Below are positions 1 to 61,327 of a stretch of DNA of 64,000 nt, piece after piece. The notes beneath the pieces are model-generated. The model was not told the DNA's origin. It did no database searches and saw only the letters and a program-made list of their open reading frames with translations. Source of the stretch: Cohnella sp. SGD-V74 (GTDB lineage Bacteria; Bacillota; Bacilli; Paenibacillales; Paenibacillaceae); contig NZ_PVYW01000026.1 of assembly GCF_003001675.1 (NCBI RefSeq), forward strand, positions 62,001-126,000. Direction: 5' to 3'. Position numbers and translations under genes: made by a program. The first letter of the stretch is position 1; the number at the start of each line of letters is the position of its first letter.

Positions 1-169
1 AAGGTGCAAGAGGTATGTACCTCCTTCCGATGCTATACGCTCCTGAAATCTGAATAGGTAAACTCGTTAATAGGTGATTTCAGGAGCGTATTAGGCATTC
101 TCCAGGAGATACATACCCCTTCTTTTATATATCGATCATCTCAAGCAACTTTGCCTGCAAGACAACCCC
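1..169 (+). repeat. MITE-like palindromic element, copy A (left end cut by window)
   Basis: Long imperfect palindrome. The outer helix pairs 12-24 with 105-117 and the inner helix pairs 34-50 with 76-91. The apical loop carries gaataggtaaactcg at 52-66. A degenerate right terminal repeat (151-169) resembles the ends of copies C and D. The element lies just beyond the 3' end of the binding-protein gene that stops at 191, so it would form the 3' structure of that transcript. By loop orientation this copy reads on the plus strand. The left end is outside the window. Confidence 0.7.
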
Positions 170-28787: not shown

Positions 28788-29000
28788 AGCTGTCTTATAA
28801 GTAAGGGCGGTACAAGATTATCGATGAAAAAAGAAGGGCATCTATCTCCTGGAGACTGCCTAATACGGTCCTGAAATAACCCTGCGACGGGTCTACTTAT
28901 TCAAAATTTCAGGATCGTATAGCATCGGAAGGAGATAGATGCGCCTGGCGCCATTCATCGATAATCGTTCGGTACGGCTCTGTTTACTTATAAGACAGCT
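28788..29000 (-). repeat. MITE-like palindromic element, copy C (complete)
   Basis: The best-preserved copy, 213 bp with 17-bp perfect terminal inverted repeats (agctgtcttataagtaa at 28788-28804 and its complement at 28984-29000). Nested arms are atcgatgaa with ttcatcgat, ggcatctatctcc with ggagatagatgc, and tacggtcctgaaat with atttcaggatcgta. The loop at 28888-28902 reads on the minus strand. No target-site duplication is obvious. It starts 17 nt beyond the stop of the mannanase gene and makes up most of the 395-bp gap 28622-29016. Confidence 0.85.
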
Positions 29001-29016
29001 CCAATTTCCGCGAGGA

Positions 29017-30294
29017 TCAGAACGGCTCCGAACGATACAGAGCGGAGTACGAACCGGCAATGCCTGCCGCGTTATGGGCTTTGATGCGATAATAGGCCGG
29101 CTTCGTATGAATGCGGGTCGGGTCGATCCAATATTCGGCGTGGTCCGCGGGACGTCTGTCGTACACGACCGTCCACGGCCCCTCCTGGCTCTCCGTCGTC
29201 CGCTCCACCGTATAATAGGCGCCGCCGACCGCGCGGCGGAAGGCGATTCCGCCCTCGGCGCGAATCACGACCGGCGCCGCCGGGACGGAATGCTCCGGCA
29301 CGTCGAGCCCTCTCATGCGGAACAGATGGGCTCTGAGCTGGCCGATGCGCGCGGCAAGATCGTCATTAACCCCCGTTCCCGGATAATGAACGGAAAATCC
29401 GTCGTAATGCTGCACGTATCCGCCGCCGTCGGCATGCGGGAACAGCGACCAGAACAAAGTGCCGGACACCGCGGGCTCCGCTTCGGCCGCGGCCGTGAAC
29501 GCCTCCAGATCGGCGTCGGGCCAGCCGTATTCGCCCTGGATATACACCTTCCCGGCCGCCTCTACCTCCCGCGCATCGGAGACCGTCTCTTCGGCGTCGG
29601 CCGGATAATAATGAACGTCCAAAATATCGAGGCTGTCGATGCCCAGCTTGTCGCGATCCAGTCCGAACTGCTTGCCGTGAGCGACCAGATGGTTCGAATC
29701 CAGGCTCTTCACATAATCGGCCATCTCCTTCACCCAAGCGGCCGGCGCATCGTTCAGCTCGTTGCCGAGCTCCCAAGCCATAATCGTCGGATCGTCCTTG
29801 TAGGCGATGCCGCTGTACGTATTGACGCGTCCGACGATCGCGCCGATGTACCGCTTGAACAAGGCGACGCACTCCGCGTTCGCGTAGAACGTCAGCGGAT
29901 CTTCCGAGCCCTGCCATCTGGCGAAGGTGAATCTCCCGCCATGGTAATAATCCCAGTTGCACGCGAACGGAATAATCAGCTTCAGCCCGCGCTTGCCCGC
30001 CTCATGAACGGCGAAGTCGACTTTGCGGAGCGCTTCCTCGTTAAATACGCCCGGCTGCGGCATAATCGACTTGGGACTGCCTTGCGAGGCCCCCAGCGTA
30101 TGCGAACGCACGGCGTTCGCTCCCATCTCCACCGCCGTATCGAGCGCGTCGATGACCCGAAACGGCGTCGGCCAGTCCACGCCGTTCACATTTTCGTCCA
30201 GGCCAAGCCAGTAAATATTCGGTCCGGCGAACCGGAACGGCTTGCCGTCCAGCAGCAGTCTCGATTTCTCTCTCGTCACAAACGATGTTGTCAT
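29017..30294 (-). CDS. GH5-type endo-beta-1,4-mannanase-like hydrolase with C-terminal beta domain
   Basis: 425 residues. The TIM barrel contains the acid/base Glu179 in MAWELGNELND and the nucleophile Glu255 in YIQGEYGWPD; RSHTLG and WLGLDEN are further markers of the mannanase branch. The last 90 or so residues look like a fibronectin III-type beta-sandwich. There is no signal peptide, so it acts inside the cell on imported manno-oligosaccharides. The start at 30294 is chosen because AAGGA lies 8 nt upstream. It is the last gene of the importer 4 operon. Palindromic element copy C follows directly and may act as its 3' end structure. Confidence 0.85.
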   Translation of the reverse strand: MTTSFVTREKSRLLLDGKPFRFAGPNIYWLGLDENVNGVDWPTPFRVIDALDTAVEMGANAVRSHTLGASQGSPKSIMPQPGVFNEEALRKVDFAVHEAGKRGLKLIIPFACNWDYYHGGRFTFARWQGSEDPLTFYANAECVALFKRYIGAIVGRVNTYSGIAYKDDPTIMAWELGNELNDAPAAWVKEMADYVKSLDSNHLVAHGKQFGLDRDKLGIDSLDILDVHYYPADAEETVSDAREVEAAGKVYIQGEYGWPDADLEAFTAAAEAEPAVSGTLFWSLFPHADGGGYVQHYDGFSVHYPGTGVNDDLAARIGQLRAHLFRMRGLDVPEHSVPAAPVVIRAEGGIAFRRAVGGAYYTVERTTESQEGPWTVVYDRRPADHAEYWIDPTRIHTKPAYYRIKAHNAAGIAGSYSALYRSEPF

Positions 30295-30342
30295 GCTACC
30301 CATCCTTGCTTTGTTGGTTTAATAGTCATGCTGCCGCCGTCG

Positions 30343-61048: not shown

Positions 61049-61098
61049 AGAGCCTTAATGCAAGTCTACACCAAATCTGTCGCGGGTAGATAGAACGG

Positions 61099-61311
61099 GG
61101 CTGTATCATAAGTAAAAAAGGGTCGTACCAAACAATTATCGATGAATGGATGTCACAGGCATCTATCTCCCTCCGTTGCTATACGATCCTGAAACCTGAA
61201 TGGGTAAACCCGAGATAAGGTGGTTTCAGGACCGTATGAGGCAGTCTCCGGGAGATAGATGCCATCCTTTTTTCATCGATAATCTTGTACGACCTTACTT
61301 ATAAGACAGTC
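61099..61311 (+). repeat. MITE-like palindromic element, copy D
   Basis: Terminal repeats are ctgtatcataagtaa (61101-61115) and ttacttataagacag (61295-61309), 13 of 15 paired. Inner arms are ggcatctatctcc with ggagatagatgcc and tacgatcctgaaac with gtttcaggaccgta. The loop at 61198-61212 reads on the plus strand. It fills the 279-bp gap between the SLH gene 3' end and the binding-protein homologue. Confidence 0.85.
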
Positions 61312-61327
61312 CTCGTTTAATCTACTA

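Follow-up and report, generated by a model that had tools for sequence, protein, structure and literature searches.

What are the ~215-bp palindromic repeats that occur four times in the window (the whole 64,000-nucleotide stretch of a Cohnella sp. SGD-V74 contig that was analysed), how did they reach their places, and is their hairpin itself under selection? The window comes from an 8.24-Mb draft genome in 59 contigs, of the same genus as C. phaseoli and C. cholangitidis. An earlier note had described four copies that fold into one nested hairpin, and a profile built from 35 copies recovered all four at nearly the places given, with copies A and D reversed relative to B and C. Copy C folded at -109.2 kcal/mol, whereas its shuffled versions averaged -54.7 (z -11.4) and none of 200 did as well, and the nested hairpin was thereby borne out too. 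The copies, the parts of copy C and its neighbouring gene are:

1..169, minus strand: copy A, cut by the left edge of the window; profile match at 6-169; the copy is complete in locus L111
20114..20300, plus strand: copy B, profile match of 95.1 bits; subfamily with an additional small side hairpin at the junction
28788..29002, plus strand: copy C, whole element of ~215 bp, profile match of 222.6 bits
28788..28804, plus strand: copy C, P1 left arm, an IS1182-like terminal inverted repeat (sequence and fold)
28810..28826, plus strand: copy C, P2 left arm (sequence and fold)
28836..28850, plus strand: copy C, P3 left arm, the outer helix of the earlier note (covariation)
28851..28862, plus strand: copy C, conserved junction, left side (alignments)
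28863..28877, plus strand: copy C, P4 left arm, the inner helix of the earlier note (covariation)
28906..28920, plus strand: copy C, P4 right arm (covariation)
28921..28929, plus strand: copy C, conserved junction, right side (alignments)
28930..28944, plus strand: copy C, P3 right arm (covariation)
28956..28975, plus strand: copy C, P2 right arm (sequence and fold)
28984..29000, plus strand: copy C, P1 right arm (sequence and fold)
29017..30303, minus strand: gene whose stop codon adjoins copy C; open frame, gene finder; Pfam Cellulase (GH5) at 29.0 bits, cut-off 23.5
61097..61312, minus strand: copy D, whole element, profile match of 224.2 bits

The element is short (~215 bp), carries no transposase gene and is bounded by the terminal inverted repeats of P1, which is the make-up of a MITE. 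In its outermost helix, P1, GGGGCTGTCCCATAAGTA is paired with its complement; inside it, P2 pairs GTACAAGATTATCGATG with a near complement, followed by P3 (for example GGGCATCTATCTCC). Between P3 and P4 lies a junction whose two sides carry conserved unpaired letters, GGAGACTGCCTC and AGCATCGGA, and P4 (for example ATACGGTCCTGAAAT) carries an apical loop that contains ACGGGTTTACCCATTC. Some copies have an extra arm at the junction: in B-type copies a small side hairpin stands on its left, and in 12 copies of the window's genome an arm of ~70 nt stands on its right.

Shortened forms in loci L125-L130 keep P1 alone, or P1 and P2, or are without P4, as if inner arms had been lost pairwise. The exact pattern of a P1-only hairpin with a short loop matched none of 80 genomes, the window's included, and a family of this kind in relatives was rejected; a looser P1-only form of the element is present in L126. 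A second repeat, of ~163 bp and with the ends AGGGCGTGT...ACACGCCCT, occurs in the window's genome and in C. phaseoli (L106 at 1202-1364, L236:15879-16041, L091:492-654, L197:5610-5772 and others), and in L106 it sits within a copy of the ~215-bp hairpin family.

The family occupies at least 91 places in the window's genome. A search that tolerated up to 3 mismatches found the conserved 28-nt core at 75 places, compared to 0 for the reversed control, and the other 16 places, diverged or B-type, were told apart by eye against the list of cores. The earlier note had staked its reading on further copies in related genomes, and these exist: an exact 19-nt pattern gave 60 stretches among 84,980 species genomes, from a search that may have skipped records of the window's genome; C. 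phaseoli accounts for 58 of them, a lower bound for that species, and C. cholangitidis for 2, and a full-length DNA search of 80 genomes added one place in another species. The full-length query matched four of the 80 genomes, the window's and G017, G016 and G013, all of one genus. There was no blastn match to the element in plasmid or phage collections, and carriage by either was rejected on this ground. No Rfam family matched in the window at gathering scores or to copy C at E-values up to 1, in agreement with the earlier note, which did not recognise a described family in the repeat.

The terminator position of the copies, behind genes, was absent from the earlier note. Out of 81 copies of the window's genome, six short or variant forms included, 74 followed a stop codon at a distance of no more than 30 bp (median 13), and of 65 copies in the other two named species, 47 did so and 58 lay within 60 bp; the genes were called by a gene finder that uses hexamers and was trained on the sequences analysed, and were not taken from curated annotation. 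By class, the window's genome had 29 convergent, 45 co-directional, 1 divergent and 6 unclassed copies, and the other two species had 22, 34, 1 and 8, respectively. Divergent gaps make up 24% of the intergenic length in a 305-kb sample (the window and 13 blocks picked for holding or adjoining elements), and divergent placement was rarer than this length predicts in the window's genome (1/75, p = 4e-8) and in the other species (1/57, p = 6e-6). Among copies with 20 nt on each side and known gene strands, the T content of the 10 nt past the exit end was 46% compared to 32% past the entry end (74 co-directional copies, p = 6e-7), and 50 convergent copies had 45% T over both ends. The orientation of the element to the co-directional gene was near random, 23:17 in the window's genome and 17:17 in the others. 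From this placement and the T-rich exit side, we infer that the P1 stem and the T-rich tract would act as an intrinsic terminator.

We looked for target duplication in 97 copies whose ends a motif could locate, and direct repeats of 3-8 bp at offsets 0-8 did not exceed shuffled pairings by more than 2.75 copies. The flanks of these 97 copies vary from copy to copy yet stay complementary across ~7 nt beyond CTGTC/GACAG (z up to 6.7) and then stop; such copy-specific flanks could be either the kept foot of a replaced stem or the result of drift of paired ends.

The branched hairpin of the element also occurs in insertion sequences of the IS1182 type. The element profile matched 19 of 68 fetched IS1182-type loci, which amount to 13 separate places spread over 12 Cohnella genomes (the match is weak at two of these places, E 0.0013 and 0.0023), and the hairpin lies in the IS1182 5' region, past the left end and ahead of the transposase gene. 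In loci L247 and L245, the left end and the branched hairpin are followed by an open frame of 533 codons, and the right end bears the matching repeat; the L247 frame scored 455.9 bits compared to the IS1182 cut-off of 270, and the L245 frame has one undetermined base. The window's genome has a decayed IS1182 (L132) of the same order, with the left end GGGGCTGTCTCATAAGT, the same branched hairpin, a transposase in pieces of 243 and 162 aa (NF033551, 195.6 and 114.1 bits, under the cut-off of 270) and a right end with GGGACAGCTCC. Even the ~70-nt extra arm recurs in IS1182 loci (87.5% identical over 56 nt in L254; 24 nt in L221). The element shares with full-length IS1182 both its ends, compared by eye, and its internal part, in structure and partial sequence identity. 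A protein search of 37 genomes of the genus, the window's among them, gave matches in 25, and no intact close transposase scoring over the cut-off was found in the window's genome or C. phaseoli, both drafts. Since the same branched hairpin stands in IS1182 5' regions, the repeats are best read as IS1182-derived MITEs and not as a free-standing host element.

Six IS1182 loci of the genus (L243, L244, L248, L249, L266 and L267) gave no match to the element profile; in place of the branched hairpin, their left end has one that resembles a terminator and perhaps shields the transposase gene from read-through. L247 has a second hairpin just 5' of its transposase gene (L247:1432-1503), similar to Rfam RF02847, the Enterococcus sRNA Ref64, at 30.4 bits, below the cut-off of 44.3, and the sRNA may be derived from an IS1182 leader.

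We further analysed the pairing of the inner helices. The arms quoted in the earlier note read as it gave them; those of the outer helix of copy A, quoted correctly, contain an A-C mismatch on the plus strand of the window (gtaCctcc with ggagAtac), which is G-U on the element's own strand. RNAalifold recovered only a 10-bp helix from a 123-copy full-length alignment (elements of 205-250 bp, identical ones removed, 62 from the window's genome) because the outer parts of distant subfamilies aligned poorly, and pairs were therefore counted on fixed columns and on the inner core. In P3 and P4 of 37 diverse copies, among which two came from IS1182 loci, 97.5% of the cells were paired compared to a shuffled mean of 87.5, and 18 of 30 pairs had changed on both sides compared to a shuffled mean of 8.6. 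The covariation score was 0.318 compared to 0.126 in shuffles that ignore the kinship of the copies, 0 of 500 being as high, and only 35-51% paired when partners were slid by 1-3 columns. Nine IS-borne copies had 10 of 40 P2/P3/P4 pairs doubly changed and a score of 0.211 compared to 0.088 (0 of 500 shuffles), with an unexceptional count of pair types (107 of 500 shuffles as high). Both alignments were without copies bearing the 70-nt arm. The paired substitutions reported earlier are therefore upheld by a larger set of copies.

Selection on the hairpin, which the earlier note drew from these substitutions, does not follow from them alone, because template switching can make the two arms of a DNA palindrome alike. 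Such palindromes can undergo repair templated by the hairpin, and this might have made the paired changes of the inner hairpin in place of selection on RNA or single-stranded DNA. P1, with 135 G-U and 138 A-C cells, is without strand bias, as templated repair would have it. In P3 and P4, however, 25 reciprocal nearest-neighbour copy pairs, drawn from 115 cores without extra arms, had 18 changes between a standard pair and G-U compared to 3 for A-C, along with 16 for other mismatches and 6 from one standard pair to another. After removal of one G-U-rich pair the excess was still 15 to 3 (p = 0.0075), albeit from few independent events. Over all cells, the ratio of G-U to A-C was 79:26 in P2, 51:36 in P3 and 82:11 in P4. 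A DNA cruciform folds on both strands and no bias is expected of it, so the G-U excess, few as the independent events are, hints at selection acting on one single strand. The unpaired junction, which ranks among the most conserved parts of the element in the alignments, also speaks against repair. These two observations favour selection on the hairpin, as the earlier note had it, and templated repair is a possible but rather doubtful source of the paired changes.

We compared orthologous sites of the window's genome and C. phaseoli, with flanks ~75-91% identical, where C. phaseoli element loci were at hand, and the ratio of sites occupied in both to empty sites is accordingly no frequency. Five sites with both flanks homologous were occupied in a single species, L117/L227 in the window's genome and L181/L241, L203/L271, L208/L291 and L208/L292 in C. 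phaseoli. Each of the five empty alleles has a hairpin where the element would be, and this hairpin is absent beside the element in the occupied allele. Hairpins are frequent at 3' ends, 56% of 142 controls attaining -20 kcal/mol, and 9 to 30% of these controls were as stable as the five empty-site hairpins (best local energies of -36.8, -36.7, -34.7, -39.1 and -27.7), a comparison that slightly favours the empty sites, for which the more stable strand of each hand-placed 90-nt stretch was taken, compared to a single strand for each control.

The likeness of the empty-site hairpin to the element end was at background level at four of the two-flank sites. The hairpin of L208/L292 (site D) bears GAAGCTGTCCC, which agrees with the element end in 9 of 11 letters, and that of L156/L311 (site E), a site compared over one flank, agrees in 10 of 11 and has an energy of -24.9; at least 9 of the 11 letters were attained by 9 of 300 random 90-mers. 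Judged by these letters, both might be remnants of the hairpin family. L226/L225 has an element remnant with a hairpin of -21.1, and neither this hairpin nor that of L156/L311 is stronger than many controls. The place orthologous to the second element of L156 has a deletion in the window's genome, and L104/L209 is rearranged. Because the species differ by ~15-25% in the flanks, an element could have been lost and a hairpin formed later, and the empty allele may not necessarily be the ancestral one.

Six sites with two flanks were occupied in both species, and five of them differ in subfamily. Three of the five (L034/L187, L045/L152 and L011/L159, the L159 copy being itself interrupted) are also opposite in orientation, and the orientation is unchanged in L015/L183 and L109/L191. 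L270/L203 is B-type in both species and therefore probably inherited. An element is also present in both species at L092/L170, compared over one flank.

IS1272, assigned to the IS1182 family (PMC5678879, PMC4923244), is described as replacing inverted repeats without duplication (PMC5678879). TnSha1, which IS1272 mobilises, removes part of the stem-loops that it targets, and RNA-seq confirmed five of seven of these as terminators; the plasmid repA terminator was a target several times and in both orientations (PMC4923244). The Cohnella copies show the same two marks, no target-site duplication in 97 copies and a stem-loop present at the empty and absent from the occupied site in five of five cases; the empty-site hairpins and the swaps of subfamily and orientation fit the stem-loop-replacing transposition of IS1272.

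Most probably, the repeats are IS1182-derived MITEs, mobilised in trans by an IS1182 transposase, that replace stem-loops, usually terminators. They would have been made from the left (5') end of a Cohnella IS1182, with P1 ends around P2, P3, the junction and P4. This transposase would recognise the ends in trans and direct the element into a stem-loop of the DNA, in most cases an intrinsic terminator 3' of a gene, and the target stem-loop would be lost at the moment of insertion without target duplication, as in print for IS1272. The P1 stem followed by the T-rich tract would then restore a terminator, an exchange of like for like that would cost the host little. Being a stem-loop itself, an inserted copy could be replaced by another copy, which would explain orthologous sites with other subfamilies in either orientation.

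Alternatively, the MITEs could have integrated ordinarily beside or into terminators without replacing them, gene conversion then swapping subfamilies and recombination between terminal repeats flipping copies. The ends common to the copies are long enough for recombination, inverted-repeat recombination is known to flip the DNA between the repeats, and the copy-specific inverted complementarity ~7 nt outward looks as if the foot of a stem had been kept; as to a retained target stem as the source of these flanks, the empty sites fit either way. Ordinary integration is nevertheless unlikely, given that direct repeats are not in excess, that at none of the five two-flank sites does the occupied allele show, next to its element, the hairpin that the empty allele has, and that conversion of whole elements requires shared flanks, which the copies are without. 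A family of structured terminators or small RNAs that belongs to the host, has multiplied by duplication and resembles the IS1182 leader through capture by an insertion sequence would suit the place behind genes, the T-rich exit side and the branched structure with side arms, but is highly improbable in view of terminal repeats that match IS1182 ends, a random orientation to the gene, sites exchanged between species and the full-length DNA match in only four of 80 genomes compared to hairpin-bearing IS1182 in 12.

Returning to IS1182-derived MITEs that replace stem-loops, we put forward a more tentative proposal, which we regard as possible though short of probable. The branched hairpin might be a working single-stranded module (RNA or single-stranded DNA, in either case of the strand opposite the transposase) of a Cohnella IS1182 lineage, and transposition or the control of it would require this module in cis. 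Its miniature copies might have spread as self-terminating cassettes, many host terminators being exchanged and re-exchanged as the species diverged.

The closest systems in print are IS1272 and TnSha1 of staphylococci, alike in their IS1182 family, in stem-loop targets that include terminators, in stem-loop deletion without duplication and in both orientations at one terminator (PMC4923244, PMC5678879); these are full transposons, whereas the Cohnella copies are ~215 bp, geneless, at ~90 places and with a covarying branched hairpin. IS1182-derived MITEs are themselves already in print: the ISMac2 MITEs of Methanosarcina acetivorans (14 copies of 160 bp and 7 of 169 bp) are miniature IS1182 derivatives too, and their description as consulted in PMC3852290 makes no mention of terminators, stem-loop replacement or a covarying hairpin. 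A review of prokaryotic MITEs does not mention IS1182, and within the open-licence literature as far as it was accessible, stem-loop-replacing transposition was found only for IS1272 and TnSha1, and the combination of an IS1182 MITE with terminator or stem-loop replacement was not found.

The earlier note had likened the repeats to bcr1-type or REP-like elements, rightly pointing towards a mobile element; the kinship itself was not sustained, in view of the same hairpin in IS1182 5' regions, the size, the ends and the lack of direct repeats. Bacillus cereus repeats, as described, are likewise interspersed, of 100-400 bp, up to 130 copies per strain for bcr1, and with mobile features, but bcr mobility is tied to TTTAT repeats (PMC6542083); the bcr1 type was ruled out on the lack of any excess of direct repeats of 3-8 bp. 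REP/RAYT palindromes share the frequent place 3' of genes and G-T pairs in stems, but REPs are described as 20-40 bp long, one of their ends being tagged by GTAG or CGTC (PMC3733652), compared to ~215 bp and IS1182 ends in Cohnella, and this type was ruled out as well.

Beyond the repeats, the analysis uncovered a covarying 5' structure in IS1182 elements that has no Rfam entry. Terminators are usually seen as local and slowly changing; here, ~90 gene ends of one genome bear a mobile hairpin, and orthologous gene ends in two species are held by differing copies, some of them flipped, providing many before-and-after pairs for testing stem-loop replacement. The findings suggest that the element attains its high copy number because it returns what it removes.
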